From contig MFOV01000012.1 in assembly GCA_001782515.1 (NCBI GenBank), forward strand, positions 5,832-43,214: DNA of 37,383 nucleotides, read 5' to 3'. How positions within the stretch are numbered: position 1 is the first letter of the stretch; each line of letters begins with the position of its first letter. Under the pieces are notes generated by a model. That model was given only the letters and a program-made list of their open reading frames with translations, had not been told where the DNA came from and did not search any database. The translations under genes and the position numbers were made by a program. Positions 16,725 through 37,383 of this stretch are shown here, in pieces. This DNA is from Candidatus Levybacteria bacterium RIFCSPLOWO2_01_FULL_39_10 (lineage in GTDB: Bacteria; Patescibacteriota; Microgenomatia; Levybacterales; UBA12049).

Positions 16725-16730
16725 AATTTT

Positions 16731-17618
16731 ATGGAACTTCTTGTTAGCGCATCATTTATCGCGGCCTTTATAGCAGGAATTGCAGCCTTATTTGCTCCTT
16801 GCTGTGTAACAATACTTTTACCCACTTATCTTGCTTCTATTTTTAGAGATCGATCAACAGTATTTTTGATGACGTTTATTTATTTTCTAGGACTTTTGGT
16901 TGTATTTATGCCGATTGGTTTAGGTGCAGTTTTCTTAACGCAAATATTCAGCACTTATCACAACACTATTTTCTTCCTAGGTGCTTTATTTTTAATTTTT
17001 TTAGGCACATTTTTACTTCTGGGACAACAGTTTTCTCTCCCGTTTAATATCCACCCCGAACTTAAAAGAGCGAATGCTGGATCTGTCTTTATCCTTGGGA
17101 TTATTTCAGGTATTGCCACAACTTGCTGCGCTCCGGTTCTGGCCGGCGTTTTAACGCTGGCAGTACTACCTGGATCATTTTTATTAGGAGCAGCTTATAC
17201 CCTCGCTTATGTTTTAGGAATGGTTTTGCCCCTTTTTATTCTTGCCACAGTACTTGATAAAACTAAGTTTACAAAAAAATTTTTCGTTTTTCGAAGAAGC
17301 GTGAGTTACTCTCTATTTGGAAAACAAATCAGATTAACTTTTTCTAATCTGTTCTCAGGAGCAATGTTTTTGGTTCTTGGAATAATTATCTTATTTCTAG
17401 CCAGAACAAATAATTTAACATCTCATGCTTCTTATCAAGTAAGTATTAACATTTATTTAACAAAGCTTATTCAGCTTATAGGAGAGTATACAAAACTTAT
17501 ACCCGAACCTATCTGGGCTTTGATTTTTGTTGGTATATTCATTTTCATTACTAAAATTGCACTTGGGCAATTAAAAAATCTAAAGAATGTAAATAAGAAA
17601 GAAGGTGAGAATGAATAA
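16731..17618 (+). CDS. ccdA: CcdA/DsbD-type transmembrane thiol electron transporter
   Basis: Polytopic; 'FAPCCVTILLPTYLASIFRDRST' and 'GIISGIATTCCAPVLAGVLTLAV' cysteine motifs. Confidence 0.82.
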   Translation: MELLVSASFIAAFIAGIAALFAPCCVTILLPTYLASIFRDRSTVFLMTFIYFLGLLVVFMPIGLGAVFLTQIFSTYHNTIFFLGALFLIFLGTFLLLGQQFSLPFNIHPELKRANAGSVFILGIISGIATTCCAPVLAGVLTLAVLPGSFLLGAAYTLAYVLGMVLPLFILATVLDKTKFTKKFFVFRRSVSYSLFGKQIRLTFSNLFSGAMFLVLGIIILFLARTNNLTSHASYQVSINIYLTKLIQLIGEYTKLIPEPIWALIFVGIFIFITKIALGQLKNLKNVNKKEGENE

Positions 17619-18246
17619 ACAAATCCTTGCGATAATTGGAATAGTGGGTGTAATAGTTTTATTGGTGGTTATAGTTGCATCTTTTTCCGACGAAAGTAAA
17701 CCATCGGAAACCCAATCACAGACACCCTCTGATATAAGTGGGCATCATGGATCTGATACGACAAACGATGAGAAATTCCAGTCACTTATTGAGAAGGAAG
17801 CACCTGATTTTATACTTGAAAGTTATACAGGTGAGCAAGTGAGCTTACAAGAACTCCGGGGCAAAAAAATTGTACTCTTCTTCACAGAAGGACTTATGTG
17901 TTATCCGTCATGCTGGAATCAAATGGCCGCATTCGGGGAAGATAGCGCATTTAACAATAGTAACGTAGTAACTTTAAGCATCACCGTTGATAGAAAAGAA
18001 GATTGGAGGCAGGCAATTGAAAAAATGCCTGAGCTATCTCGTGCAATAGTACTTTTTGATACTAACCGTCAAGTATCCAGTGAGTATGGCGTTCTCTCAT
18101 TATCATCGTCCATGCATAAAGGTCAGTTTCCAGGGCATACTTATCTCATATTAGATGAAGAAGGCGTGGTCCGTTTTATTAAAGATGATCCTCAAATGGG
18201 AATAAGAAACGATGAGTTGAAGGCTGAGCTTGGGAAGTTAAAGTAA
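17611..18246 (+). CDS. Membrane-anchored redoxin/AhpC-TSA-like thioredoxin-fold protein with CX3C motif
   Basis: EAPDFILESYTGEQVSLQELRGKKIVLFFTEGLMCYPSCWNQMAAF and FPGHTYLILDEEGVVRF; N-terminal TM. Confidence 0.8.
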   Translation: MNKQILAIIGIVGVIVLLVVIVASFSDESKPSETQSQTPSDISGHHGSDTTNDEKFQSLIEKEAPDFILESYTGEQVSLQELRGKKIVLFFTEGLMCYPSCWNQMAAFGEDSAFNNSNVVTLSITVDRKEDWRQAIEKMPELSRAIVLFDTNRQVSSEYGVLSLSSSMHKGQFPGHTYLILDEEGVVRFIKDDPQMGIRNDELKAELGKLK

Positions 18247-18248
18247 AA

Positions 18249-18335
18249 ATGAGTAATAAAAATCTGTTTGCTCATGCATTTATTATACACAAAGGTCATG
18301 GAGATCACAAAAATAAGAAAAAGAGAGGTGAATAG
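18249..18335 (+). CDS. 28-aa His/Lys-rich microprotein (MSNKNLFAHAFIIHKGHGDHKNKKKRGE)
   Basis: Short open frame between redoxin and YHS genes. Weak SD. Not in the ORF track. Confidence 0.35.
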   Translation: MSNKNLFAHAFIIHKGHGDHKNKKKRGE

Positions 18336-18338
18336 ATT

Positions 18339-18503
18339 ATGTTTGGAATAGGAAGTGACGATAAAGTAAGGGATCCTGTCTGCGGGATGAAAGTAGACAA
18401 AAATAAAACTCAGTTTTCTTACGAAAAAGGGAGACATAAGTTTTATTTCTGTTCTCAAAATTGTAAAGACACGTTTATCGAAGACAATAAAAAGGGAGCT
18501 TGA
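18339..18503 (+). CDS. Stand-alone YHS-domain protein, 54 aa
   Basis: MFGIGSDDKVRDPVCGMKVDKNKTQFSYEKGRHKFYFCSQNCKDTFIEDNKKGA; SD AGAGAGGTGAATAGATTATG; TGA stop. Missed by the ORF track. Confidence 0.85.
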   Translation: MFGIGSDDKVRDPVCGMKVDKNKTQFSYEKGRHKFYFCSQNCKDTFIEDNKKGA

Positions 18504-18542
18504 GAAGGCAATAAATGTTTTTGGTAATGATTTAAAAAATAT

Positions 18543-18992
18543 ATGGAGAATATAAATATATCAATTGTTAAGGACTCTTCGGTAAAAGGATTATTGGCCA
18601 CTTTTGCTTTGCTGGTTATATATCTTACAATAGTTACATTAGTTTCAGGTTGGGCCTTTGCTCAGATTCAATTTAGGCAGTTTTGGTTTTTTATTATAAC
18701 GCTTGCAATTGGTTTTGGGATTCAGGTGGGTCTTTTTACTTATCTTAAAAATGCAATTAAACAAAATACGTCTCCAAGAGTTTTAGCTATTTCAGGAACA
18801 ACCTCGACTGTCGCTATGGTTTCTTGCTGCGCTCATTATTTGGTAAACATTTTACCAATTCTTGGTGTAGTTGGAATTATTACTGTTATTTCTTCATATC
18901 AAGTACAACTTTTTTGGGTAGGATTGGTTTTTAACATTGCAGGAATAATTTATATAACAAATAAAGTTATCAAGTACACGCGCGGAATATGA
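18543..18992 (+). CDS. Four-TM membrane protein with SCCAHYL motif
   Basis: 149 aa, hydrophobic; 'GTTSTVAMVSCCAHYLVNILPILG'; sits within the metal-related cluster. Confidence 0.65.
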   Translation: MENINISIVKDSSVKGLLATFALLVIYLTIVTLVSGWAFAQIQFRQFWFFIITLAIGFGIQVGLFTYLKNAIKQNTSPRVLAISGTTSTVAMVSCCAHYLVNILPILGVVGIITVISSYQVQLFWVGLVFNIAGIIYITNKVIKYTRGI

Positions 18993-19450
18993 AAATAAAA
19001 TCAAAATTATTATTAGTTTTTTTAATTCCAGTTATTATTGCAGGTGTTTTTATTGTCGCAAGAGCGAATGATAAATCTTCTGAGAGCAATAAAAACCAAG
19101 TTACTACGGAAAAAAACTTATATTCATCGCAAACAAATTCTGAAGGAAACGTAGAAGTTGAGGTTGTTCCGAATGTTTCAGCGGACAAAAAATCATGGAG
19201 TTTTCAAATTACTTTAACGACTCACGAAGGAAGTTTGGACGAAGATTTAACAAAAAAAGCATTTCTTGAAGGCGATGGCGTAGAAAAAATAAAACCCTCA
19301 AAATGGGAAGGATCACCGCCAGGTGGTCACCATCGTGAGGGGAAATTAGTCTTTCCATCATTTTCCCAAACGGCAAAATCAGTCAGACTAATATTAAAAG
19401 ATATTGGACAAATCTCAGAACGAAGTTTTATTTGGAACTTTGACGGGTAA
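18989..19450 (+). CDS. Secreted/anchored hypothetical protein
   Basis: N-terminal hydrophobic helix; 'KWEGSPPGGHHREGKLVFP'; 4-nt overlap with previous gene. Confidence 0.6.
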   Translation: MKIKSKLLLVFLIPVIIAGVFIVARANDKSSESNKNQVTTEKNLYSSQTNSEGNVEVEVVPNVSADKKSWSFQITLTTHEGSLDEDLTKKAFLEGDGVEKIKPSKWEGSPPGGHHREGKLVFPSFSQTAKSVRLILKDIGQISERSFIWNFDG

Positions 19451-19464
19451 AAGGAGGTGATTAA

Positions 19465-19875
19465 ATGAAAAAAGAATATTTGTACGGAATAATTGGATTT
19501 CTAGGAGGTATAGTTCTTACAGTTTTGTTTGCTTCCAATGCAGTGAACAATAACAGCCAACAAATGATGGGAATGATGGGAATGAAAGCTCAAGCACCTT
19601 CCTGTCAAATGGGAGAATCTAGGGAGTTACAAATGAGCATGGAAGATCATATGATGGGTATGACTAGCTCTTTAGAAGGGAAAACCGGAGATGAATTCGA
19701 CAAGACTTTTATTGAGGAGATGATAGTTCATCATCAAGGAGCAATTGATATGGCGCAGCTCGCTCAAGAAAATGCCGGACATGATGAGATTAAATCTATG
19801 GCAGATAATATCATTTCTGCCCAAAGTAGCGAAATAGAAATGATGAGGAATTGGCAACAAGATTGGGATTATTAA
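19465..19875 (+). CDS. DUF305-family protein, Met/His-rich, membrane-anchored
   Basis: DKTFIEEMIVHHQGAIDMAQLAQENAGHDEIKSMADNIISAQSSEIEMMRNWQQDW; QQMMGMMGMKAQ and MEDHMMGMT Met clusters; SD AAAGGAGGTGATTAAATG. Confidence 0.9.
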   Translation: MKKEYLYGIIGFLGGIVLTVLFASNAVNNNSQQMMGMMGMKAQAPSCQMGESRELQMSMEDHMMGMTSSLEGKTGDEFDKTFIEEMIVHHQGAIDMAQLAQENAGHDEIKSMADNIISAQSSEIEMMRNWQQDWDY

Positions 19876-19890
19876 GTTTAATATATGAAA

Positions 19891-19925
19891 GGCCGCCGGC
19901 CCGCGAGGGCCTCTGGCCCGGAGGG
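19891..19925 (+). promoter_or_regulatory. 35-nt GC-dominated element with two mutually exclusive hairpins just upstream of the DUF5676 SD
   Basis: GGCCC-GCGA-GGGCC (19898-19911) versus GGGCC-TCT-GGCCC (19907-19919), in otherwise AT-rich DNA. Confidence 0.5.
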
Positions 19926-19936
19926 AGGTGAAAATT

Positions 19937-20203
19937 ATGCTTAAATCTATCGCTTTTGCAAATGCTGCGACAATAGTTATAGCAATATTTTTTATAGCTT
20001 GTGCACTTTTGTCTTATGTTGCGCCGAATTTAGTAGCTGGTATTGGAAATTCATGGGTTCATTCATTGAATCTGGAAGCAATTAAAATAAAAACTCAGCT
20101 TTCGCTAGGAACTCTTGTTTACGGACTGGTGACAATTTCGGTAGTAACATGGGTAACGTCATACGCATTTGTAGAATTATATAACAGACTTGCAAAAAAA
20201 TAA
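19937..20203 (+). CDS. DUF5676-family two-TM membrane protein
   Basis: LKSIAFANAATIVIAIFFIACALLSYVAPNLVAGIGNSWVHSLNLEAIK...; SD GGGAGGTGAAAATTATG. Confidence 0.75.
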   Translation: MLKSIAFANAATIVIAIFFIACALLSYVAPNLVAGIGNSWVHSLNLEAIKIKTQLSLGTLVYGLVTISVVTWVTSYAFVELYNRLAKK

Positions 20204-20208
20204 TAACA

Positions 20209-22293
20209 ATGGATATGAATAACAAAATTTATACGTGTCCTATGGATCCGGATATAATTCTGGACAAACCCGGCGATTGTCCAAAATGCGGAATGAAACT
20301 TACCCCGCTTAAAGAAGAGTATGATGGACATGAAAATCATTCCTCAATGGAGCAGGAATTTAAAAAGCGTTTTTTCATAACCCTTCCGTTTGTAATCCTT
20401 GCAATGATTTTGTCCCCAAATATCCAAAATTGGCTTTCATTAGGTATTGATTTTGCCGGCCGAGAAATTGCACTTTTTGTCATTGGCACATTTATATTTT
20501 TCTATGGAGGACTTCCTTTTTTCAGGGGCGCAAAAGGAGAACTCTTTGCAAAGAATGCGGGAATGATGACGCTTGTCGCTTTGGCAATAACTGTTGGATA
20601 TACATTTTCTGTTGCTGCGACATTCCTTTTCCCTGGAGAATCTTTGTACTGGGAAATCTCAACTCTTATTTCAGTATTTTTGCTTGGACATTGGCTTGAG
20701 ATGAGAGCAGTTCGTGGGACAACAGGGGCACTTGCCGAACTTGCAAAACTTACCCCGCCCCAAGCCCATCTTTTAAAAGACGGCAAGGTAATTGATATTA
20801 AAACTGATGAAGTAAAATTAGGTGACAAGCTTCTTGTAAAACCGGGCGAGAAAATTCCAATTGACGGGCAAGTTTTGGATGGAGAAAGTTCTATTAATGA
20901 GTCAATGGTAACAGGCGAATCTCGCCCTGTAGGAAAATTAAAAGGAGACAAAGTTATAGGTGGAACCATTAATCAAGACGGGTCGCTTACGATTCAGGTT
21001 ACAAAGACAGGGAGCGATACGGCAATCTCCCAAATTATGGATTTGATAAGACGCGCACAGGAATCAAAGCCTAAAGTTCAGGAGCTTGCAGACCGCGCCG
21101 CAAACGTTTTGCCATTAACCGCTATAACCATCGGTACGGGAACATTTATATATTGGCTAATTATTAATCCTCAAGGCGCAGTCTTTGCATCAACCCTTGC
21201 CGTTGCGGTTGTGGTTGTTGCCTGTCCGCACGCTTTGGGCCTTGCTATTCCAACGGTTACAACAATTACATCAACTCTTGGTGCCCGCAATGGAATTCTA
21301 ATAAAAGATATGAAGGGGTTAGAGATAGCGCGGAAAATAAATTATGTAGTATTTGATAAAACAGGGACACTTACCCGCGGAGAATTTGGTATAGCAGAGG
21401 TAGTTCGCGTATCAAGTTCAATAGTTGGGGAACAGGAACTATTAAGGCTTGCTGCAGCTGTTGAATCTTCCTCCCAGCATTCAATAGCAATGGGTATAGT
21501 GAATGAAGCAAAAAAGCATAAAATTACGATCCCGACTCCTAAGAATTTTAAATCATATCCAGGCAAAGGTGCGATGGGTAAGGTTGATAATAAAGAGATT
21601 ATTATAGGAAACGGACGCATGATGGAAGAATTAGGTATTAAGAAAGAAGATATTAATAAGCTTGAAACGAAGAAAGTAGGGACATTAGTTTATATTGCTA
21701 TTGATAAAAAATTATCCGGCGCTTTCGTATTATCCGACTTAATAAGAGACGAATCCCGTCCTGCGATTGATAAGCTCCACGAGATGGGCATAAAAATAGC
21801 AATGCTGACAGGGGACAAAAAAGAAGTGGCGGATGAAGTTGGTCGTACCTTAAATCTTGATACGGTTTTTGCAGAAGTTTTGCCGGGTGATAAAGTTGAG
21901 AAAGTCAAAGAACTCCAGAATAAAGGCTATATTGTCGCAATGGTAGGGGACGGCGTGAATGATGCTCCAAGTCTTACCCAAGCACACATGGGAATTGCAA
22001 TAGGGGCAGGAACTGACGTTGCCGTAGAATCAGCAGAAATAGTACTTATGAAAAACAATCCGCAAGATGTTGTTAAGGCAATTTCCCTCTCCCGCAAAAC
22101 CAACTTCAAAATGGTTCAAAACCTTGCGTGGGCAACAGGATATAATGTCTTTGCAATACCAATAGCAGCGGGTGTACTTTTTCCTACATTTGGAATACTG
22201 CTTCGCCCCGAATGGGCAGCAGTTTTAATGTCTGCTTCATCCATAATCGTTGTTTTTAATGCTCTTATTTTAAGACGAGCAAAGCTAAGTTAG
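20209..22293 (+). CDS. copB: CopB-type heavy-metal (copper) translocating P-type ATPase with N-terminal heavy-metal-binding domain
   Basis: YTCPMDPDIILDKPGDCPKCGMKL at N-terminus; TM CPH motif (VVVVACPHALGLAIPT); DKTGTLTRG; GDGVNDAPSL. Confidence 0.92.
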   Translation: MDMNNKIYTCPMDPDIILDKPGDCPKCGMKLTPLKEEYDGHENHSSMEQEFKKRFFITLPFVILAMILSPNIQNWLSLGIDFAGREIALFVIGTFIFFYGGLPFFRGAKGELFAKNAGMMTLVALAITVGYTFSVAATFLFPGESLYWEISTLISVFLLGHWLEMRAVRGTTGALAELAKLTPPQAHLLKDGKVIDIKTDEVKLGDKLLVKPGEKIPIDGQVLDGESSINESMVTGESRPVGKLKGDKVIGGTINQDGSLTIQVTKTGSDTAISQIMDLIRRAQESKPKVQELADRAANVLPLTAITIGTGTFIYWLIINPQGAVFASTLAVAVVVVACPHALGLAIPTVTTITSTLGARNGILIKDMKGLEIARKINYVVFDKTGTLTRGEFGIAEVVRVSSSIVGEQELLRLAAAVESSSQHSIAMGIVNEAKKHKITIPTPKNFKSYPGKGAMGKVDNKEIIIGNGRMMEELGIKKEDINKLETKKVGTLVYIAIDKKLSGAFVLSDLIRDESRPAIDKLHEMGIKIAMLTGDKKEVADEVGRTLNLDTVFAEVLPGDKVEKVKELQNKGYIVAMVGDGVNDAPSLTQAHMGIAIGAGTDVAVESAEIVLMKNNPQDVVKAISLSRKTNFKMVQNLAWATGYNVFAIPIAAGVLFPTFGILLRPEWAAVLMSASSIIVVFNALILRRAKLS

Positions 22294-26325: not shown

Positions 26326-26790
26326 TTAGATAGATAAAGCATCAAGTGCTTTTAGTGCATAATATTTGACATTCGGAACAATCTCATTATTTTCTTCTAT
26401 TTCTTTCTTTGTAAACCATCTACACTCCTCGTTTAACTCATCTTTCATACCCTGAGTTATTTGATCACTTGTTGCTTTAGCAAAATAAACAAACGTTATG
26501 TGTTCATGTGTTTTGTCAATTTTATGTCTGTTTAAAAAATATGGGGGTATTAACTCTATGGTTTCATCCTTTTCATAATTAGGTCTTAGCTTATCATCCA
26601 GTTCAATATCCAATCCAACCTCTTCTTTAACTTCACGAATCGCCGCCTCAACTGGGTCCTCGTGAAGCTCAATATGTCCACCAATACTCAACCACTTTTT
26701 ATATTTATCATGTCTTCTTAAAAGTACTTTATGTTTATGAACGATAAAAACTTCAACTGTAAAATCGATAAGTTTATGGATGTGTGGCAT
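26326..26790 (-). CDS. NUDIX hydrolase
   Basis: Nudix box GGHIELHEDPVEAAIREVKEEVGL. Confidence 0.92.
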   Translation of the reverse strand: MPHIHKLIDFTVEVFIVHKHKVLLRRHDKYKKWLSIGGHIELHEDPVEAAIREVKEEVGLDIELDDKLRPNYEKDETIELIPPYFLNRHKIDKTHEHITFVYFAKATSDQITQGMKDELNEECRWFTKKEIEENNEIVPNVKYYALKALDALSI

Positions 26791-26833
26791 GGAGAGATTA
26801 TAACAAATTGAACTTGTATTGTAGAATGAGTTT

Positions 26834-27127
26834 ATGGCGAGAAAGGACCTGCCTGCCGGCAGGCAGGAGTGGTCGAATGAGGTTACTAAACATAGTATTG
26901 CGCTGGATCTTGAAGAAGGGGTTTTTACATGGGATGATCCGAAAAAAATTGCCTCAAGTCTTAAGCGTTCGGCTGATGTTAGTACAAGAAGAAAAGCCTC
27001 ACCTTTTCAATCCGCAATGAGCATGCTTAATTTTTATATTAACCGCGCTGGTAAAAATCTAAACCCTAGGAAAAAGAAAATACTTGAGGAAGCAAAAATA
27101 GAGCTTCGAAAGATATTCACCGAATAA
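26834..27127 (+). CDS. DUF3175-family protein containing an in-frame palindromic insertion near the N-terminus
   Basis: EWSNEVTKHSIALDLEEGVFTWDDPKKIASSLKRSADVSTRRKASPFQSAMSMLNFYINRAGKNL; preceded by MARKDLPAGRQ encoded by the palindrome. Confidence 0.82.
   Translation: MARKDLPAGRQEWSNEVTKHSIALDLEEGVFTWDDPKKIASSLKRSADVSTRRKASPFQSAMSMLNFYINRAGKNLNPRKKKILEEAKIELRKIFTE
26848..26867. repeat. 20-bp perfect palindrome CCTGCCTGCCGGCAGGCAGG
   Basis: Direct reading; inside the DUF3175 CDS. Confidence 0.95.
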
Positions 27128-27164
27128 GGGCAATTATAGCACTTCGCTTTTGCTCAGCGTAAAC
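27126..27164. repeat. Diverged, inverted partial copy of the 76-bp repeat family
   Basis: AGGGCAATTATAGCACTTCGCTTTTGCTCAGCG... versus reverse complement of the 76-bp repeat GGGGCAATTATAGCCCTTCGACTTTGCTCAGGG... Confidence 0.65.
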
Positions 27165-27169
27165 AGAAG

Positions 27170-27793
27170 TTATTTACTGAATATTGTTATTCCGCCGTTA
27201 GAGCCGGGGAAGTTGAAAGCTTTTTCAAAATCTTTTAGAGTAATTTTTCTTCCTTTGATTGGTGGTAGTCCAGGGTCGTGAAGAATTATATTTCTTCCGT
27301 CAAAATCATAAAGCAAAATGTAATGTAAAGAAAAGCCTGGCTTGTTGTTTAAAATTCTGGAATTTACTTCTACGCTAACCAAAAAGCCGTCTTTTAAGTT
27401 TTCTGTTATTTCATTAACAGATCCTTTTCTTATCTCGTGCTTTACGTTTTTGAGAAATTCCGGAATAAAAGGGATTACTGATTTGATATTGCTTTTGTCC
27501 AGATAATAATCCGCTGTGTCTTTGCCGACCACTTTTCTAAGGTAATCCGGGCCGTCTTTGTAAAGTTTTTTGTAATCGACGGGTTCTACGCTCGTGATTT
27601 TTAAACCTTTTTTTGCAAAGTATGTAAGTCCGGGGAATGTCCAAGTTCCTTTTCTGGAGACAGATTTCATTATTCTATCTATTTCGCGCCAATTTAAATC
27701 TTCACCAAAATAATATTTGCTAAGCATTCGAAAGACTGCGGGACAACAGTGCATGTTATCGGAAGAATTAGCTACAAACGGGATCTTTTTCAT
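27170..27793 (-). CDS. C39-like papain-fold peptidase domain protein
   Basis: HCCPAVFRMLSKYYFGEDLNWREIDRIMK... and HYILLYDFDGRNIILHDPG; spacing of Cys and His typical of C39-like proteins. Confidence 0.6.
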   Translation of the reverse strand: MKKIPFVANSSDNMHCCPAVFRMLSKYYFGEDLNWREIDRIMKSVSRKGTWTFPGLTYFAKKGLKITSVEPVDYKKLYKDGPDYLRKVVGKDTADYYLDKSNIKSVIPFIPEFLKNVKHEIRKGSVNEITENLKDGFLVSVEVNSRILNNKPGFSLHYILLYDFDGRNIILHDPGLPPIKGRKITLKDFEKAFNFPGSNGGITIFSK

Positions 27794-27846
27794 GGGGCAA
27801 TTATAGCAGGTTTGTTATATAAGCTATGTTATAATCTAAGTCATTA

Positions 27847-28374
27847 ATGAATATAAATTATATATCTTCCGTTGTTGAAATATTTACCCAGCTTACAACA
27901 GCGATTGCAATAATTCTCGGTGGCATTTGGGGATATTGGAATTTTGTGATCAGAAGGACTGGTATATGGAATCTTCAAATGAGTATTTTGCCCCAAGTCC
28001 ATAGTTATCATGGAAAAGACCGCTTACTAATTGTTGTTAATATTACGTTAAAAAATGTTGGTAATGTAAAGATTGTTCCTGGACCAAGCGGATGCAGATT
28101 AACAGTGATTAAATTACCAAAAAATATTAAAGAATATAACGTTTTAGATTGGAAAAAAGGACAGGTGCTGTTTAAAAATATTGACATATTAAGGAATTGT
28201 AAAGTAAATAATAGTTATGAAGGAGGATATGAGCTTGAACCAAATAATGAATATCATGAATTCGAAACATTTATTGTAAAAAAAGGTGATTTGTTAGCGA
28301 TAAGATGTAAATTTTATTGTGAAAACAATAAGGATGTTATTCACGAAAGTACTATATTTCAAGTAAATACCTGA
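27847..28374 (+). CDS. Hypothetical single-TM protein
   Basis: 175 aa ORF; N-terminal TM; upstream TGTTATAAT. Confidence 0.55.
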   Translation: MNINYISSVVEIFTQLTTAIAIILGGIWGYWNFVIRRTGIWNLQMSILPQVHSYHGKDRLLIVVNITLKNVGNVKIVPGPSGCRLTVIKLPKNIKEYNVLDWKKGQVLFKNIDILRNCKVNNSYEGGYELEPNNEYHEFETFIVKKGDLLAIRCKFYCENNKDVIHESTIFQVNT

Positions 28375-28392
28375 AAAATTACTCTTAATATT

Positions 28393-28536
28393 TTAAAAAG
28401 ATAATTGTTGTTTATAGAAATCAATTGAATTTGTTACAGCGCTATTCCAACCTGATGGCAGCAAATTATGGTCAGCTCCGGGATATTTAAAATAAGTAAC
28501 ATCTACATCATTTTCCTTTAAAGCTTCTCCTTTCCC
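28393..28536 (-). pseudogene. C-terminal remnant of an alpha/beta hydrolase (dienelactone hydrolase/prolyl oligopeptidase-like)
   Basis: Reads ...GKGEALKENDVDVTYFKYPGADHNLLPSGWNSAVTNSIDFYKQQLSF*; no start or upstream catalytic region; abuts repeats. Confidence 0.6.
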
Positions 28537-28555
28537 ACTTTACTTTCCCACTTGG

Positions 28556-28587
28556 AATGTGGGAAGCAAGAAATGTGGGAAGCAAGA
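28556..28587 (+). repeat. Two perfect tandem copies of AATGTGGGAAGCAAGA
   Basis: 28556-28571 and 28572-28587 identical; inverted TTCCCAC units immediately upstream. Confidence 0.9.
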
Positions 28588-28679
28588 ACCTCGGTTTCAC
28601 TCAGTGCAAGCGCGCAAGGCTACGAAGGATTCATCTTGAGGGTTTCATCCTGAAGGGCAAGGAAGAAAGAGTATATTGT

Positions 28680-28988
28680 TTAGGATAAAATTCCTGAGAA
28701 GAATATAAGAAGAATAACAACTGTTATTGCGGCAAAAATTCCAAGAGTTTGAAGGAATATATTAACGGCTTCTTTTTTCTTCCCGTCAAAATAAAGCTGT
28801 AGCGGCTGGAAAAGAAAAATATATCCCATAACTGCTGCAGAGAGTGAAAAAAGAGAGAGTGCAGCAATTGGCGCAAGTACAGAATTATCATTAGTTCCTG
28901 AAAACTGCGTACCATAATACATTACACTTGCCACAACTACTATATATAGTACTCCGGCCCCAGCATTGATGATTGGATTCTTAGTCAC
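28680..28988 (-). CDS. Small polytopic membrane protein, GTG start
   Basis: 102 aa, three hydrophobic helices; TGTGCTATAAT upstream. Confidence 0.55.
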   Translation of the reverse strand: MTKNPIINAGAGVLYIVVVASVMYYGTQFSGTNDNSVLAPIAALSLFSLSAAVMGYIFLFQPLQLYFDGKKKEAVNIFLQTLGIFAAITVVILLIFFSGILS

Positions 28989-29084
28989 TTATTTATTATC
29001 AGAATTATAGCACAAACGGGCAATTCCAAAATTTTAAATCTTGCATGAATTTTTAAATATCTTTACTATAAATGTATAGACTAA

Positions 29085-29762
29085 ATGGCGGTTGCGCAGG
29101 AAACACTAAACGCTCCACACCACACCGATTCAGAAGCGGAATCTGCTTTTATCCCCCTAAAAATGACACAACGATCAGTAGACATTGATATCGATTTTTC
29201 AAAAGTAAATCCTGATAATATAATTGGTAAAATATACGAAGATGAATGTTTCAAGAGAGTAATTGAAGAGCTTGGGCCAAGCGAGGTTGCGTATGGTGCA
29301 CATTTTTTAAACAGAGCATTTAACTCTCACCTTAAAGCAAGAGGGGTTTCAATACCAGATGCATTAGTTGGTGAAGTTGATTACTCAACGCAGGTGTTAG
29401 ATCAATCTGGTGTTCCAGTTGATAGGTCCGTAATAAGAGTGAAACGAATTATTGAAGCGCGAACTGGAGAAATCAATGGTATATATAAACTAAAAAGATT
29501 TGGAAACTTAACAGCGGAAATTAGAAGAAATCCGGAATTTTTTACAATGGCAATTAGAAAGTTACTTGCTGGTAGGGGTGGGGTTTTAAATCTTGCTTTT
29601 TTATTTGCTCCGCCCGATGGGGAACTAGAAGTTGATTTTTATTCCCCACATCAACATACAGAAAGAGAAGTAGCTGATGCTAAAAGACAGCTTGGAGAAC
29701 ACCCTTTTAGAAAAATAGGATATAAAACTGTTCCTCTTCCGATTTTCACCCCTGCAGTATAG
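29085..29762 (+). CDS. Hypothetical protein
   Basis: 225 aa ORF, no recognised motif. Confidence 0.5.
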   Translation: MAVAQETLNAPHHTDSEAESAFIPLKMTQRSVDIDIDFSKVNPDNIIGKIYEDECFKRVIEELGPSEVAYGAHFLNRAFNSHLKARGVSIPDALVGEVDYSTQVLDQSGVPVDRSVIRVKRIIEARTGEINGIYKLKRFGNLTAEIRRNPEFFTMAIRKLLAGRGGVLNLAFLFAPPDGELEVDFYSPHQHTEREVADAKRQLGEHPFRKIGYKTVPLPIFTPAV

Positions 29763-29893
29763 AGAATTAAATGGATATTTTATTGCTCGAACGATGGTAT
29801 GTTTATAAAACAACTGACTGGACAAATTACCATAAATATCCAGAATTTACTCTAAAACAAACCCAGCATTGTTAGCAATAAATTAACTACCCA

Positions 29894-30529
29894 TTATAAC
29901 TGTTTTACAAATCTGACTGTATAGTTCCAAAAGTTTCCCAACACTTTATCAAGAATAAAACCTGCCTCCTCTCCTATCTTGATTGTGGTTGATTTAAGCG
30001 GATAATCTGGGTCAGGCAAAAACTCGGTTACTGCTAGAACACCCCCTGGCTTTAACACCCTTCCTGCCTCCTTCAAAGCTTTCTGTTTGTCTGGTGTCTC
30101 TTGAAGGACTGTCACCATATACACTAAGTCAATAGAATTATCTTCAAAGGGTAGTTTGTATGCGCTTCCAAGAATCAACTTGATGTTTTTTATATCCTGA
30201 TTTTCAGGTTTTGTAAGTTTGACTTTTAGCTGCCTTAACATTGCAGGTTGAATATCAAGCGCATACACTTTTCCTGTCTTCCCAACGACTCTTGCAACAG
30301 ATGTCACAAATGCTCCGCTTCCACATCCAACCTCCAATACACGCATACCCTGCTTTATTCCACTACGCTCTATTAACTTATCGGGTGGTTGCATCTCCCT
30401 TCTTATATCACTATCCAGGAATCGTCCAATAAACGCAGGTGCAGGAAAGTGATACCTTTTTCTAAACAGTCTTATAACTACTTGCCATACCAGAAGAACT
30501 CCTAAGATTGTTAATACAATCGTCGTCAT
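29894..30529 (-). CDS. Class I SAM-dependent methyltransferase (UbiE-like), membrane-anchored
   Basis: GMRVLEVGCGSGAFVTSVARVVGKTGKVYALDIQPAML; DLVYMVTVLQE; RVLKPGGVLAVTEF. Confidence 0.88.
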   Translation of the reverse strand: MTTIVLTILGVLLVWQVVIRLFRKRYHFPAPAFIGRFLDSDIRREMQPPDKLIERSGIKQGMRVLEVGCGSGAFVTSVARVVGKTGKVYALDIQPAMLRQLKVKLTKPENQDIKNIKLILGSAYKLPFEDNSIDLVYMVTVLQETPDKQKALKEAGRVLKPGGVLAVTEFLPDPDYPLKSTTIKIGEEAGFILDKVLGNFWNYTVRFVKQL

Positions 30530-30688
30530 TCCTTAAATTATAGCAACATTTAATGCCTTAAAAACTGCCAACTCGGTTAGATTATTGACAACTCAGCTCC
30601 CCCTATCGGACTTATTCATCAACAGGGAGATTGAGTTTGATGTTAACTTGGAGGATTTTAAGAATTTATATTCAAATCTGAATATTAT

Positions 30689-31174
30689 CTAATTAACTAG
30701 GATATATTTTTCATCCTCGCTGGGTGATTCCCAGTATTTCAAATATTTATCAAACATTTCTCCACTTATTTCAAAGGAATCTATAGGAGGATTTTTACTT
30801 CGTGAAACAACCCTTTCTCTCATTTTCTCTACAGAGCATTCAACATAATATAAAATTGGCTTTGCTCCTGCATTTAATATTTTCTTCTTTATATCGTCTC
30901 TTTGTGATTTAACCCAGAAACCTTCATCTATTATCACATCTTTCCCAGATTCCAAAATTTTGAAAGCAATATTTGTAGCCAATTTCGTTATTTTTCCGTC
31001 ATATACTGCAAAATTCTTATCTGAAGTAATTTTATTTCCATAAATTTTTATAATCCATTCGTCTTTAGTTATGCGAATTGCTCCCGTTTCCTTTTCTAGT
31101 TTTCTAGCAAAAGTAGTTTTTCCCGAACCGATAAATCCGCAGATAACATAAGCAATAGGTTGTTTCTTATTCAT
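30689..31174 (-). CDS. P-loop kinase (AAA_33/zeta-like)
   Basis: AYVICGFIGSGKTTFARKLEKETGAIRITKDEW; DVIIDEGFW; lid-like RERVVSR. Confidence 0.78.
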   Translation of the reverse strand: MNKKQPIAYVICGFIGSGKTTFARKLEKETGAIRITKDEWIIKIYGNKITSDKNFAVYDGKITKLATNIAFKILESGKDVIIDEGFWVKSQRDDIKKKILNAGAKPILYYVECSVEKMRERVVSRSKNPPIDSFEISGEMFDKYLKYWESPSEDEKYILVN

Positions 31175-31233
31175 TAAGACATTATAACAAAGTGGAATCT
31201 ATTTATATTATGATGGAGCTCTAAAATTACTTG

Positions 31234-31305
31234 CTCCGCAGCTAGGACTCGAACCTAGAACCTTATCCTTAACAGGGATCTGCTCTACCATTGAGCTACT
31301 GCGGA
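31234..31305 (-). tRNA. tRNA-Asn (GTT)
   Basis: TCCGCAG-TA-GCTC-AATGGTA-GAGC-A-GATCC-CTGTTAA-GGATA-AGGTT-CTAGG-TTCGAGT-CCTAG-CTGCGGA-G; anticodon GTT. Confidence 0.9.
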
Positions 31306-31362
31306 ATGTTTGATAATTATATAAAATTAGCCTCAAGATGTAAACCTGCTATAATTGATCCA

Positions 31363-31521
31363 ATGAAAATAAATGCAGAGTGGCATAAGAAAAATAAAAT
31401 GCCAAAAAATCCAACCGAGGAGCAAAGAATAAAATGGCATATAGCGCATGCCAAAAATTGCGCTTGCTGGCCTATACCCAAAAAACTCCAAGAGATAATT
31501 GACAAAAAATATCCGTCCTAA
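31363..31521 (+). CDS. 52-aa conserved-type small protein (MKINAEWHKKNKMPKNPTEEQRIKWHIAHAKNCACWPIPKKLQEIIDKKYPS)
   Basis: ATG 7 nt downstream of TGCTATAAT; the longer ORF start falls inside the tRNA. Confidence 0.75.
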   Translation: MKINAEWHKKNKMPKNPTEEQRIKWHIAHAKNCACWPIPKKLQEIIDKKYPS

Positions 31522-31606
31522 TATAATTTGCTAAATTATGAAAACCCGTCACGTTAGAGAAGTGTGATTGTTTAAGTTTTTATAGAGACAAACAGAAAAC
31601 AGTATT

Positions 31607-32032
31607 ATGAAAAAATCCCAAAACAACAAAAAATCCTCTAACGTGATGAATCCCGTAGTTCACTTTGAGATGCCGGCAGTTAATAAAAAAAGAGTTGCGA
31701 AGTTTTACGAAACTGCCTTTGGCTGGGAGACGCAGCAGTTAGGAGCAGAGATGGGTCATTATCTTCTGGCAACAACAACACCTCTTGACAAGAATAGAAT
31801 GCATCTTAATAAAGGCGCCATAAACGGAGGTTTTTTCCAAAAACCAAAAGAAGGCAAGGTGCCTCATCTGGTAATCTCAGTTGATAATCTTAAAAAACAC
31901 ATGGAAATTGTTAAAAAAGCAGGTGGAAAAGTTCTGGGAAAGCCAATGGATATTTCAGGAATTGGAGAATTTGTAATGTTTAAAGACACAGAAGGAAACC
32001 AAGTCGGAATGCTTGAGCCCTCTCAAATGTAG
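31607..32032 (+). CDS. VOC (glyoxalase/bleomycin-resistance) family protein
   Basis: 'VVHFEMPAVNKKRVAKFYETAFGWETQQLGAEMGHYLLATT' and 'FVMFKDTEGNQVGMLEPS'. Confidence 0.88.
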   Translation: MKKSQNNKKSSNVMNPVVHFEMPAVNKKRVAKFYETAFGWETQQLGAEMGHYLLATTTPLDKNRMHLNKGAINGGFFQKPKEGKVPHLVISVDNLKKHMEIVKKAGGKVLGKPMDISGIGEFVMFKDTEGNQVGMLEPSQM

Positions 32033-32059
32033 ATTTATCTCATTTGCTATAATTGCCCC

Positions 32060-32548
32060 ATGAAGGTTAACGAAAATATTATTTGGGACTTACTTAGACT
32101 TTCGCTTTCATTTATTTTTCTCTGGGTATTTTTTGATAAATTATTTGGACTTGGATTTGCAACCGGAGCAAGTAAATCATGGCTTGCAGGGGTCTCTCCT
32201 ACAACCGGATTTTTAGCAAATGCTCCCGATGGACCACTTGCTCCGCTTTTTAACAGTCTCTCAGGAAATATTGTGATAGATATTTTATTTATGGGAGGAC
32301 TTTTTTTAGTTGGATCTGCACTACTTCTTGGAATCGGGATGAAGATTGCTGGTTACTCAGGATCTTTAATGATGTTTTTAATTTATCTTTCTCTTTTTCC
32401 TCCGGAGAATAATCTCTTGATTGACGAACACATTGTTTATATTATTATTCTGATTGGCTTGGTCATAAGAGGTGAAAAACAAAAATTTGGGTTCGGCAAA
32501 AAATGGTCAGAAGTTAAATTAGTTAAAAAGTATTCAATCCTTCAATAG
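32060..32548 (+). CDS. DoxX-like/TQO small-subunit-like membrane protein
   Basis: 'LLRLSLSFIFLWVFFDKLFGLGFATGASKSWLAGVSPTTGFL'; four TM helices. Confidence 0.7.
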   Translation: MKVNENIIWDLLRLSLSFIFLWVFFDKLFGLGFATGASKSWLAGVSPTTGFLANAPDGPLAPLFNSLSGNIVIDILFMGGLFLVGSALLLGIGMKIAGYSGSLMMFLIYLSLFPPENNLLIDEHIVYIIILIGLVIRGEKQKFGFGKKWSEVKLVKKYSILQ

Positions 32549-32577
32549 ATAAATTCCCCTTTTGCTATAATTGCCCC

Positions 32578-33039
32578 ATGACTTCCTCTGAATTTTTCAA
32601 AATAATTGAATATATTACCCAAAACTGCAGGGATTTAAAAAATAAATATATAAGCGAAGATTTAAAAATTGATTACGTTTGCATATTTTCGAAAAGCCAA
32701 AAGGAATTTGATGAACTTTTAAAATTTGCGTCAAGCATAGGAGAATTGGCAGAACAAACAAAAACAGGGCCTGTTTTTAAATTAAATAATTCTCCAGATA
32801 CAATTATTGGCAAACCAAAAATGCTAAAAATAAGAATTCCCGATAAAACAAGACTGGAAAGAGGAGACGTGGATTTTAATACAGACTATGAAAATTTCAA
32901 AAAAAAGTATCTTGATAACAAAAGATTTACTTTAATAAAAAGGGACAACTTTGAAATGCTTGAACTGCGAGATAATTCCTTTGATGTTCTGGTTTACTTC
33001 TCAAGCATTCCTCTTAGCGAACAGTTAGGAGTAAATTAA
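32578..33039 (+). CDS. Hypothetical protein
   Basis: 153 aa ORF directly downstream of TGCTATAATTGCCCC. Confidence 0.6.
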   Translation: MTSSEFFKIIEYITQNCRDLKNKYISEDLKIDYVCIFSKSQKEFDELLKFASSIGELAEQTKTGPVFKLNNSPDTIIGKPKMLKIRIPDKTRLERGDVDFNTDYENFKKKYLDNKRFTLIKRDNFEMLELRDNSFDVLVYFSSIPLSEQLGVN

Positions 33040-33063
33040 AAGCTAAGCTGCTATAATTGCCCC

Positions 33064-33390
33064 ATGATTATAATCCTCAAAAAAAGAGCTACGAAAGATG
33101 ATATTAAAAAAATGTCAGAAGATTTTGACGGATATATTAAGCTTGTTGTCGACATTGAAAAAGAAATATTGGCCGGAGGCGGAGAGAGGCATTTTGAAGC
33201 AGAACAAAAATTAATTAATGATGGTTCACACCAAACAAGTCTTTGGGGCGGCGGATTAGATTGGGATACTCGCGAGATAGATTATAATTCAATTTTAAAT
33301 CTTCGGCCGGGGGTAAATCCAAGCCGTGATATTCTCTCCGAAATTATAAGAAAAAAGTTTGATAAAATAGTTGAAGATATTCTTCTATGA
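33064..33390 (+). CDS. DUF5674-family protein
   Basis: 'IEKEILAGGGERHFEAEQKLINDGSHQTSLWGGGLDWDTREIDYNSILNLRPGVNPSRDI'; directly downstream of TGCTATAATTGCCCC. Confidence 0.8.
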   Translation: MIIILKKRATKDDIKKMSEDFDGYIKLVVDIEKEILAGGGERHFEAEQKLINDGSHQTSLWGGGLDWDTREIDYNSILNLRPGVNPSRDILSEIIRKKFDKIVEDILL

Positions 33391-33698
33391 CAAGTACAAA
33401 ATTAAAAATTCTAGACATAGCGATGAACCTTAATAGAGTTGGTAACTTTGCCGCAGATGGGTATGATATAAAACAAAAAAGAATAAAAATATTTCTTAAT
33501 CAAACCTCAGAATACATAGACTCTCTCTCTATCAAAGATTTACCAGACTCATTTAAAAGAACATACTTAAATTTTCTAAATCAATATAAATATCTTAAAA
33601 AGGAAGGATTATCAGGACCTAAAAATGAGCTTGAATGGGCTGAAAAAATGATGACATGGGGAAATATTTTGACTCACCGTGCAAACCTCATAAAATAA
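33387..33698 (+). CDS. Hypothetical protein, coupled to the DUF5674 gene
   Basis: 103 aa, 4-nt overlap (ATGA). Confidence 0.6.
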   Translation: MTSTKLKILDIAMNLNRVGNFAADGYDIKQKRIKIFLNQTSEYIDSLSIKDLPDSFKRTYLNFLNQYKYLKKEGLSGPKNELEWAEKMMTWGNILTHRANLIK

Positions 33699-33701
33699 CT
33701 T

Positions 33702-33777
33702 CCTTGCCCTATCGTAGCCTTAGGGCGAAGTGGGGTGCTTGCCCTGAGCAAAGTCGAAGGGCTATAATTGCCCCAGT
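33702..33777 (+). repeat. 76-bp direct repeat, copy 1
   Basis: CCTTGCCCTATCGTAGCCTTAGGGCGAAGTGGGGTGCTTGCCCTGAGCAAAGTCGAAGGGCTATAATTGCCCCAGT; identical to 34292-34367. Confidence 0.97.
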
Positions 33778-33992
33778 TATTTTAGCCTGAGGAATTCTTC
33801 TTCACTAGACTCCGCTTGTTTGATTATACTTCTTACCAAACCTTTTTTCAGTTCTCTGGCATGAATGGGAATAGGAATAATCCTCTTTAACTTGGGATTA
33901 TACATAATAAGATGGCTGCCGGTTTGTCTTTTTTGAATGTACCCCAGTTTTTGAAGAATTTTAACTATCTCTCTTGCTTTAAAACTTGCCAT
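33777..33992 (-). CDS. hicA: HicA-family mRNA interferase toxin
   Basis: KAREIVKILQKLGYIQKRQTGSHLIMYNPKLKRIIPIPIHARELKKGLVRSIIKQA. Confidence 0.9.
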   Translation of the reverse strand: MASFKAREIVKILQKLGYIQKRQTGSHLIMYNPKLKRIIPIPIHARELKKGLVRSIIKQAESSEEEFLRLK

Positions 33993-34262
33993 TTATAGAG
34001 ATACTGCTGGATTTTGTACGGAAATTTGCGTGATGACAACATTTGGCCCTTCTTGTGGAATTTCTTGTTTTTCTTCTTTAAGAACCTCCAAATACCCTTC
34101 CATGGCATCTTTTATCATAGACACCGCTTCCTCAAAAGTTTCCCCCTGGCTAACGCAGCCAGGAAGTGCCGGAACACTTACCACATATCCGCCTTCTTCA
34201 GCCGGTTCAAAGATAGCAGTATATTTTAAGATTTTTTTTGAAAGAGATTTTACTTTTACCAT
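33993..34262 (-). CDS. hicB: HicB-family antitoxin
   Basis: YTAIFEPAEEGGYVVSVPALPGCVSQGETFEEAVSMIKDAMEGYLEVLKEE. Confidence 0.9.
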   Translation of the reverse strand: MVKVKSLSKKILKYTAIFEPAEEGGYVVSVPALPGCVSQGETFEEAVSMIKDAMEGYLEVLKEEKQEIPQEGPNVVITQISVQNPAVSL

Positions 34263-34291
34263 GAATTAATTATAGCATACTCAAACTCTTC

Positions 34292-34367
34292 CCTTGCCCT
34301 ATCGTAGCCTTAGGGCGAAGTGGGGTGCTTGCCCTGAGCAAAGTCGAAGGGCTATAATTGCCCCAGT
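34292..34367 (+). repeat. 76-bp direct repeat, copy 2
   Basis: Identical by eye to 33702-33777. Confidence 0.97.
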
Positions 34368-34403
34368 GCGTGACAAAATGTATGCTAATATGGTAATATA
34401 TTT

Positions 34404-34688
34404 ATGAATACATCCTTTGAATGGGATGAGAGTAAAAATACCGAGAATTTAAGAAAGCATGGAGTAGGTTTTGAGACTGCCCAATTCGCATTTATTGATT
34501 TAAGACGCGTAATTGCTCGGGATCTAACTCACAGTAAGAGAGAAAAGAGATATTTTTGTTTCGGAAAAGTTAAAGGAGGTGTACTGACTGTTCGCTTTAC
34601 CTATCGGAGCAATAAAATTCGCATAATTGGCGCTGGATATTGGAGAAAGGGCAAAAGCATATATGAAAAACAAAATAAAATACAGTAA
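34404..34688 (+). CDS. brnT: BrnT-family toxin
   Basis: FEWDESKNTENLRKHGVGFETAQFAF...KREKRYFCFGKVKGGVLTVRFTYRSNKIRIIGAGYWRKGKSIYE. Confidence 0.9.
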   Translation: MNTSFEWDESKNTENLRKHGVGFETAQFAFIDLRRVIARDLTHSKREKRYFCFGKVKGGVLTVRFTYRSNKIRIIGAGYWRKGKSIYEKQNKIQ

Positions 34689-34893
34689 TGAACCAATCGA
34701 GGCTCGTGTAGTGAGTGATTTCTTACCTAAGCCTGAGGATTTGGTTTTAAAAGAAAAAAAGATAAGGGTAACCTTAACTCTTACCGAGAAAAGTTTGGAC
34801 TTTTTTAAAATAGCTGGTAAAAAACATGGGGCTCCTTATCAGGCAATGATAAGACGCCTTCTTGATTTTTACGTTGCTAATCAAAAAGCCTAA
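34663..34893 (+). CDS. brnA: BrnA/CopG-like antitoxin
   Basis: KKIRVTLTLTEKSLDFFKIAGKKHGAPYQAMIRRLLDFYVANQKA; overlaps brnT; start chosen at MKNKIKYSNEP. Confidence 0.82.
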   Translation: MKNKIKYSNEPIEARVVSDFLPKPEDLVLKEKKIRVTLTLTEKSLDFFKIAGKKHGAPYQAMIRRLLDFYVANQKA

Positions 34894-35009
34894 ATAAGTT
34901 TTGGAAGAATTTCCTCTTCTGCTATAATTGTCCCCATAGCCGATTTCCAAGAAGTCACTATAGGATATTGTGTTTTGAGGGGAGTAGTGCTATTATCGCT
35001 CAGCAAAAA

Positions 35010-37383
35010 ATGCGAAAGGGGTTTTGGAGAAAGTTCTCTGCATTCCTTGCCCTAATTTCGATACTTGCCCAATCGTTAGTCCTTTTATTGGCTTCGGCAC
35101 CAAGAGTATATGCACAAGAAGAGGTAGAACAAGTTGCACTTGAAGAATCTGTAACAGAAACTCCTATTCCTACTACCTCTGATGAAATAACCGCATCTCC
35201 CTCACCAGAAGATCAACCTCAAATAACTCCCGAAGAGGCAATCTTTGAGATAGACATAACCCTCACACCACCAGAAAACGTTACGCCTTCAAATGCTCAG
35301 ACACAAAATGAGTTGGAGCAACTAGAAAATCAGGAAAACAATAATAGTCCAAATGAAAAACCACAAGATGAAGAGCCACAAGAGTATAATGAAGAACTCC
35401 ACGTTATAGTTATCAATAATGTTTCTGCTGAATCTTTAGATTTAGAAACAACTGTAAAAGATTCTTCGGCAACACTTACTACCGATAAGGCCGACTATTC
35501 TCCAACAGACACGGTTATTATTAGCGGGAGCGATTTTAAGCCGGAGCAAACATATAAGCTAATAATTACATCAGAAAATGAGCCTCCTGCCCACTTTGAA
35601 ACAGAAATTAAATCTGATGAAAACGGATCTTTCATATACGCTTATCAGCTAGACGGGACGTACAGACCAAACTATAAAGTTGAGGCAAAAGACGAAGATG
35701 GAAATATTATCGCAACTATAACATTTACAGACGACATCCAAGCCCCTGTTCCCTTTTCAGACTCCTTTGGGACTGTAAATTCGTCTTCGGTAACTAATTG
35801 GGATGAACAAGATCCTGCGGAAATAACAAGTGGTTCAGGTGAGGATTCTTCAAGACCGGGGTCTCCTACTACAAAATTTGCAAAAATTGGACAATCAAGC
35901 GGCGGAACAGATGGATGGATTAGGCGAACGATCAACGCAACAGGATTTCAATCTCTTCAACTTAAATATTACTGGAGAGGAGATAGTGACGCAGAAAGTA
36001 ATGACTTAGGAATTGTAGAATATTGTTTGGGAGCGACTTGCACTTCTTTTAACCAGCTCGTGACTCATGCTTTGAACAATACTTCCTGGAGCGGCCAGCA
36101 AACCATAAATTTGCCCTCATCGCTTAATAATTCTGTCTTTAGAATAAGATTTAGAAATAGTTCCAGCAATACTGATGAATATTTTAGAGTAGATGATGTT
36201 GAAGTAGCGGGCTCTGGGATAGTTCCGCCGGATACCATTCCTCCAACTGACCCAGCTGATGTCCATAGTACTGACCACACAATCAATGTACCATCAAGTG
36301 ACAATACTATTGCTATTGCTTGGACCTTAGCCGGTTCTGCTCCCGGGGCTACTGATTCAGAATCCGGGATTGACGGATATTCATATTCATTTAGTGGCGG
36401 GGCTGCTGATTTACCAGATACAGTAAAAGACTCGGAAGAATCATCAATAGGGACAACGAGTAGCTCTCTTTCAGACGGCAATTGGTGGTTTCATTTAAGA
36501 ACCAGAGATAATGCAGGCAACTGGACATCAACGGTGCATATCGGCCCATTTATAGTAGATACCGGTGCTCCGGTTTTATCAGAGGCAACAGCTGTCCAAA
36601 CCCCAACAAATGATACGACCCCAGCTTATGTATTCAATTCTGATGAAGAAGGGACGGTTTCATATGGAGGCAGTTGTTCCAGCCCAGATTCGTCTGCAGT
36701 TTCTGGCAACAATACTATTACTTTTAACTCTCTTTTGGATGGAACCTATTCTGATTGTACAATTATAGTTACGGATTCTGCGGAGAATAGTAGTACGCCT
36801 TTGGGTGTATCTCCATTTACAGTTGATACGCTGGCTCCTACATCTTCATTTACTTCTCCAGAAAACAACAGTTTCTGGAACAGCTCAATAGAAATCTCCG
36901 GAAGCTCAATTGACCCATCAGGTAATTTTGTAGATTATGTTACGCTATATTACTCCCTCTCAGGAGAAAATGACTGGAATGAGATTACCCAAGTTACTAA
37001 TAATGCAGATACCCCTTTTAATTGGAGCTACAGCTGGGAACCCGAAAATGAGGTGACTTATGACATAAAGGCTGAGGCAACAGATGTTGCTGGAAACACG
37101 GAGACAAGCCCCATAGTCACAAATATAACTTATGATATTACATCACCCACAGATCCCGATGTTTTCTCAAGTAGCCATGCAGTTGGTACTTGGTCAAATG
37201 ATCCAACCGTTGATATTGAGTGGGGTGGGGCTGCGGACTTTTTGTCTGGAGTAGCCGGTTATTCATTTCATTTTGATTCCTCGCCAAGCACGCTTCCTGA
37301 TGAAGTATCAGAAGGGTTAGTAACATCAACAACAAGTGAGGGGCAAGGCGATGGAGACTCACACTACTTTCATTTAAGAACAC
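35010..37383 (+). CDS. Large secreted surface protein with Ig-like/fibronectin-like repeats, partial at window end
   Basis: Signal peptide MRKGFWRKFSAFLALISILAQSLVLLLASAPRVYAQEE; repeats 'SGIDGYSYSFSGGAADLPD...NWWFHLRTRDNAGNW' and 'SGVAGYSFHFDSSPSTLPD...HYFHLRT'. Frame checked at three points; absent from the ORF track because it has no stop in the window. Confidence 0.85.
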   Translation, partial: MRKGFWRKFSAFLALISILAQSLVLLLASAPRVYAQEEVEQVALEESVTETPIPTTSDEITASPSPEDQPQITPEEAIFEIDITLTPPENVTPSNAQTQNELEQLENQENNNSPNEKPQDEEPQEYNEELHVIVINNVSAESLDLETTVKDSSATLTTDKADYSPTDTVIISGSDFKPEQTYKLIITSENEPPAHFETEIKSDENGSFIYAYQLDGTYRPNYKVEAKDEDGNIIATITFTDDIQAPVPFSDSFGTVNSSSVTNWDEQDPAEITSGSGEDSSRPGSPTTKFAKIGQSSGGTDGWIRRTINATGFQSLQLKYYWRGDSDAESNDLGIVEYCLGATCTSFNQLVTHALNNTSWSGQQTINLPSSLNNSVFRIRFRNSSSNTDEYFRVDDVEVAGSGIVPPDTIPPTDPADVHSTDHTINVPSSDNTIAIAWTLAGSAPGATDSESGIDGYSYSFSGGAADLPDTVKDSEESSIGTTSSSLSDGNWWFHLRTRDNAGNWTSTVHIGPFIVDTGAPVLSEATAVQTPTNDTTPAYVFNSDEEGTVSYGGSCSSPDSSAVSGNNTITFNSLLDGTYSDCTIIVTDSAENSSTPLGVSPFTVDTLAPTSSFTSPENNSFWNSSIEISGSSIDPSGNFVDYVTLYYSLSGENDWNEITQVTNNADTPFNWSYSWEPENEVTYDIKAEATDVAGNTETSPIVTNITYDITSPTDPDVFSSSHAVGTWSNDPTVDIEWGGAADFLSGVAGYSFHFDSSPSTLPDEVSEGLVTSTTSEGQGDGDSHYFHLRT

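Follow-up and report, generated by a model that had tools for sequence, protein, structure and literature searches.

IntI, the integrase of integrons, is a tyrosine recombinase with an IntI-specific extra domain; the attI site adjoins its gene, and the attC sites are imperfect inverted repeats that end in an R box (GTTRRRY) and are conserved by structure. REP elements, to our knowledge, carry no gene cargo. Integron and CALIN arrays consist of tandem short cassettes with uniformly oriented site-like junctions and toxin–antitoxin (TA)-rich accessory cargo; they include some reversed genes, gene-less cassettes and cassettes shared between species, and they occur without a linked integrase (PMC8618304, PMC9024848). 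The array described here is like them in all these respects. It is also like the dif modules (pdif; XerCD) of Acinetobacter plasmids, in which TA and other accessory genes form discrete modules beside short Xer-type sites and no dedicated recombinase is needed (PMC10132070, PMC6449649). The pdif sites have the composition XerC-spacer-XerD and lie on plasmids, and their modules are found between inversely oriented sites.

The window analyzed here is the whole stretch of 37,383 nucleotides, C12:5832-43214 of the studied Candidatus Levybacteria genome (G000), a 98%-complete draft of 921,647 bases. Coordinates without a prefix refer to this window. The region from about 27100 to 37383, and on to C12:47457, is probably an integron-like gene-cassette array with hicAB as one of its cassettes, because its units are shared or duplicated with homology that ends at a common core. 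About fifteen related junctions turn out to split it into small movable gene units. Each unit would hold one short gene or two paired ones, with the core (C)TG-CTATAATTGCCCC as its boundary, and a 76-nt repeat would represent the full two-hairpin form of the junction.

The hicA toxin gene (33777-33992, minus strand; HicA, PF07927, 2.9e-20) is reversed relative to the core orientation and lies side by side with the hicB antitoxin gene (33993-34262, minus strand; HicB-like, PF15919, 3.1e-13), the domain pair expected of a HicAB module by Pfam. A 95% identical relative of hicB is present in the congeneric metagenome-assembled genome (MAG) Ca. Levyibacteriota NC_groundwater_515_Ag (G008). From its sequence, a putative leaderless hicBA promoter, TGCTATAAT-N6-ATG (TATAAT-N6-ATG), can be placed at 34260-34274 on the minus strand; hicB would thus have its own promoter, with the same geometry as that of the core, and by inspection it is found in G008 too (GATATAATTAGAGCATG). 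A repeat search of the window returned exactly two 76-nt copies around the module, at 33702-33777 and 34292-34367 (both plus strand), which are 100% identical, direct and spaced by 590. Genome-wide, there is no third full 76-mer and only two partial copies, both on the same contig. Such a perfect pair is far beyond chance. Copy 1 forms the 3′ end of the DUF5674 unit and copy 2 that of the hicAB unit, and both are composed of hairpin A (GCCCTATCGTAGCCTTAGGGCGAAGTGGGGTGC), then hairpin B (TTGCCCTGAGCAAAGTCGAAGGGC), then the 14-nt core GCTATAATTGCCCC. Hairpin B, CCCTGAGC-N3-GTCGAAGGG, is REP-like, with a covarying stem and a tandem G.A mismatch (33742-33761 and 34332-34351, plus strand). The core copies (plus strand) bound the hicAB unit on the left at 33761-33774 and on the right at 34351-34364, where the brnTA unit has its left boundary. 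The sequence-only reading of this DNA had reported identical 76-nt repeats enclosing hicA and hicB, and it was accurate on their positions. Copy 1 does touch the hicA stop, overlapping its last base; copy 2 does sit upstream of the hicB promoter, starting at a distance of about 30 nt from the hicB start, on the far side of the likely promoter; and the 3′ end shared by both copies is GCTATAATTGCCCC (plus AGT).

The two repeats are part of a longer series, since the window holds 9 copies of the 14-mer at up to 2 mismatches versus 0.17 expected. The next unit contains the brnT toxin gene (34404-34688, plus strand; PF04365, 6.4e-22) and the brnA antitoxin gene (34663-34893, plus strand; PF14384 at 3.9e-5, below the curated cut-off), and is followed by a core with 1 mismatch (34921-34934, plus strand). 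On the other side of hicAB, plus-strand cores abut the ATG of the DUF5674 gene (33064-33390; core 33050-33063), of ORF 32578-33039 (core 32564-32577) and of ORF 32060-32548 (core 32046-32059). The first core on the plus strand, degenerate with 2 mismatches (31348-31361), stands beside a tRNA-Asn (31233-31305, minus strand); arrays in other genomes are without an adjoining tRNA-Asn. An Rfam search of 26500-37383 gave a tRNA and nothing else. Further away, the C39-peptidase-like unit (27170-27793) has a core before it (27794-27807, minus strand) and, at its far end, a core with 1 mismatch together with a hairpin B variant (27127-27140, minus strand).

In sequence searches of whole genomes, the exact core has 13 copies in the 921,647 bases of G000, 12 of them within a single 14-kb stretch (C12:33625-47457), where the spacing is mostly one core per small gene unit. 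It is present in 5 of 73 family genomes, absent from the other 68, and present in 9 of 374 class genomes. The comparison genomes given by name rather than by handle alone are MAGs, all fragmented. Core arrays were found in G008, which belongs to the same genus (contigs C13 and C16), in G072 from another genus of the same family (C2), and in G093 from another family of the same class; a few copies occur in G001 and G030. The G093 array sequence sits on a 3,188-nt contig of Ca. Gottesmanbacteria NC_groundwater_155_Ag and includes full two-hairpin junctions 85–89% identical to the 76-mer.

In an all-against-all comparison of the arrays, unit homologies between genomes, or between duplicates, start or stop at the core. 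The CopG-antitoxin unit (C12:45734-46459) is 98.9% identical across species to G008 L060:12518-13243. In both genomes, the left end of the homology lies 2 nt before the core; on the right, the sequences diverge exactly after GGGTGC, one running into TATAATTGCCCC and the other into a hairpin block, then TATAATTGCCCC. Because the conserved 310-aa Xer gene of these two congeners has a DNA identity of about 74%, this unit points to recent transfer. The hicAB unit matches G008 L060:13427-13991 at 86.6%, from the first core base to the next junction, with DUF5674 and brnTA units as its neighbors in G000 and gene-less units in G008. The C39-peptidase-like unit occurs twice on C12 in opposite orientation (the other copy at C12:44575-45198; 90.9% over 649 nt), G000 and G072 have a stomatin-like unit in common (85.6%) despite belonging to different genera, G000 and G030 share the brnTA unit (87%), and a 92-nt gene-less unit has four copies in G008, each bounded by a core or near-core. 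A placement test with 20,000 random placements covered 12 homology segments, each at least about 200 nt long. Fourteen of the 24 homology ends fall within 6 nt of a core, compared with a random mean of 0.77 and a maximum of 6, and 0 of 20,000 trials were as high; the other 10 ends lie away from cores, partly owing to intervening hairpin blocks or to matches shortened by divergence. As separate observations, the 31-nt hairpin of the G008 92-nt unit (L060:13363-13393) appears once in the window (28541-28571, 97% identity), and at three sites (L038:6329-6365, L061 near 9493 and C12:50600-50633) a core or near-core is followed by the conserved hairpin RTGAATCCCGTTAGATTTTTAACGGG.

The array cargo is toxin–antitoxin-rich. 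G000 carries HicAB, BrnTA, the CopG-antitoxin pair, a 2′-5′ RNA ligase, the C39 peptidase-like protein, DUF5674 and a glyoxalase, while the G008 cargo comprises Phd/ParE twice, RHH-PIN, DUF433-DUF5615, a Zeta-like kinase, Mrr, SDR and SPFH; gene-less units of 92–153 nt exist as well. This profile matches that of integron cassettes (PMC8618304). The hicAB module is not always in an array setting, since its relatives in other family members (61–80%) are without core or hairpin nearby. ORF 26834-27127 begins with MARKDLPAGRQEWSNEVTK, whereas the homologue in G008 has MSKKKWSGEVTK, as if a palindromic element (LPAGRQ) had been inserted in frame into the coding sequence. Elsewhere in the window, 15275-22293 holds a cluster with an ArsR-like regulator, a CcdA-like membrane protein, a thioredoxin-like protein and a P-type ATPase, all named from translations.

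The core itself looks like a promoter. It supplies TGCTATAAT, an extended −10, and in many units it abuts the ATG (gap 0). TATAAT-N6-ATG occurs 64 times in the genome versus 12 for a reversed-pattern control; therefore, leaderless genes with a −10 at N6 spacing are probably general in this genome. From this abutment and this genome-wide enrichment, the 14-mer could be taken for only a strong conserved leaderless promoter, of a regulon or an island, the units being just genes transferred with it. Such an explanation is unlikely. The GCCCC tail of the core is nearly confined to the array and hardly used by the genome's other promoters, and thus something besides transcription conserves it. Furthermore, the cores of each array lie on one strand (12/12, 11/11, 6/6 and 6/6; 13/15 on C12), while the longest ORF is reversed in about a quarter of the units. 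Gene direction was assigned by an ORF-length rule, so that single calls may be wrong, although hicAB, SPFH, RHH-PIN and DUF433, all of them reversed behind a core, are clear by Pfam. This uniformity argues that the core is more than a promoter, as a plain promoter would not stay pointed into the back of reversed genes. A promoter alone also fits poorly with the gene-less units and with between-genome homology that, at either end of a unit, goes no further than the core. The two 76-mers have GG, not TG, before CTATAAT and are accordingly without the TG of the extended −10. In copy 1, the −10 geometry fits the antisense direction into hicA, in the second species as well; to judge from the sequences, the antisense RNA that the earlier reading had envisaged would look like a by-product of core orientation.

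Many units have REP-like hairpins just upstream of the core. Hairpin B is multicopy, its stem covaries (94.9% of cells paired; the covariation score was reached by 1 of 500 shuffles), and it is scattered across the phylum, with a match in 43 of 380 genomes, most often to the hairpin B part alone. Y1_Tnp genes are present in G000, G008, G072, G030 and G093, and absent from G001. Hairpin B resembles REP/RAYT elements in being a short covarying palindrome scattered over genome and phylum, with Y1_Tnp in most core-bearing genomes, and the hairpin blocks resemble optional inserts beside the core. If a Y1 (RAYT-like) transposase had spread the 76-mers as REP-type elements, hicAB would lie between them by chance or have been mobilized by the same HUH enzyme. 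This is quite improbable, since it accounts for the hairpins but not for the cassettes, whose boundaries, unlike those of REP/RAYT, track the core and not the hairpin. Junctions without any hairpin are common and many units are hairpin-free; among hairpin B instances inspected elsewhere, 0 of 31 were followed by the core; and G001, which is 98% complete, has cores without Y1_Tnp, for which reason the Y1 transposase was rejected as the mover. In hairpin A variants, the loop is replaced by other inverted sequences (L066:5173-5264 and L060:7846-7931; e.g., GCCAGGTACCGTACGGCACCTGGC in G030), a pattern consistent with selection on folding rather than on sequence.

The sequence-only reading had proposed that the repeats make hicAB a TA cassette, captured or lost by recombination between them. 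Its idea is right in kind, as hicAB is a discrete transferable unit that recurs core-bounded in a second species among other neighbors. What finds no support is a TA-specific bracket of 76-bp homologous repeats, because the repeat is one junction form and the mechanism is array-wide. That reading had also named repeats scattered without link to cargo as evidence against itself; such scatter was found, phylum-wide, for the hairpin half alone and not for hairpin plus core. Being identical and direct, the two copies make RecA-type or slippage loss physically possible, yet a hicAB-specific homologous-recombination cassette is highly improbable: the G008 homologue has no matching 76-mer pair, only a bare core on its left and a half block on its right, and the same core bounds hairpin-free units. 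Hairpin blocks at other junctions are at least 10% divergent from the two 76-mers, and the best explanation of the pair is that adjacent junctions were made identical recently. Gene conversion between neighbors would have this effect, as would a recent insertion of the hicAB unit beside a junction from its own lineage. Finally, draft assemblies are prone to misjoining at perfect repeats, but an assembly artefact or collapsed repeats can be set aside almost entirely, as the independent assemblies of G008, G093 and G072 share the organization and G008 has the same hicAB unit between cores.

Like integrons, the locus has exchanged cassettes in tandem and sites of uniform orientation, but it is not filed as an integron or CALIN because IntI and the attC R box were both missing. 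The genome encodes two tyrosine recombinases (PF00589), both Xer-like; no IntI was found in the 98%-complete draft, where integrase_gron scores of 121.7 and 70.5 fall short of the cut-off of 265 and XerC/XerD fit better. GTTRRRY is absent from both strands of the core (CTATAATTGCCCC). In addition, a near-invariant 14-nt core here stands against the sequence-variable, folded attC, hairpins are optional, and a promoter-like core would free expression from reliance on a single Pc. When two junctions, including the whole 76-mer, were folded as DNA, they showed no significant improvement over shuffles (z −0.4 to −1.4), and the 76-mer was thus rejected as an attC-like structure; hairpin-free sites have no evident folded form, unlike attC. 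The array likewise fails the pdif definition: its cores are directly repeated rather than inversely oriented, they lie on chromosomal-type contigs, and there is no XerD arm. The left flank of the core, TTCTGCTATAA, resembles a XerC arm (by eye, 7/11 to TGTTCGTATAA; PMC10132070), and no conserved XerD arm follows it in an arrangement of XerC arm, 6-bp spacer and XerD arm.

A PF00589 search of seven genomes found no dedicated recombinase that tracks the cores. A 310-aa Xer-like gene lies about 1–3 kb from small arrays on G000 C17 and G008 C16, an integron-like layout; it was rejected for this role, because core-bearing G072 and G001 lack it and G002 has it with no cores in the vicinity. A housekeeping-like Xer of 286–290 aa occurs in all seven genomes and is the only tyrosine recombinase found to be common to all core-bearing genomes among them, which makes it a lead only. 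As for carriers, IMG/VR had no match for the core+hairpin or core+ATG patterns, and the hicAB region had none in phage or plasmid records.

For an integron-like cassette array of this kind, conservative site-specific recombination inside the core would bring units in and cut them out. The candidate enzymes are a host Xer recombinase and a recombinase provided in trans. The core may double as a leaderless extended −10 promoter, in which case a unit inserted in the sense direction would be expressed at once. It is conceivable, though the chances are somewhat against it, that the array represents a Patescibacteria capture system other than the integron, in which a non-IntI recombinase acts on a leaderless-promoter core and sense units are transcribed at once with no platform promoter.

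Candidate-phyla bacteria have tiny genomes, and their gene exchange is poorly understood. No description of a cassette platform or of such arrays in Patescibacteria was found in the open-access literature searched. If true, a cassette array with a promoter-like junction would be a second way of achieving what integrons achieve, and it would explain how such cells gain TA and defence genes singly, across species and family boundaries. The 14-nt core would then offer a concrete handle for finding the enzyme.
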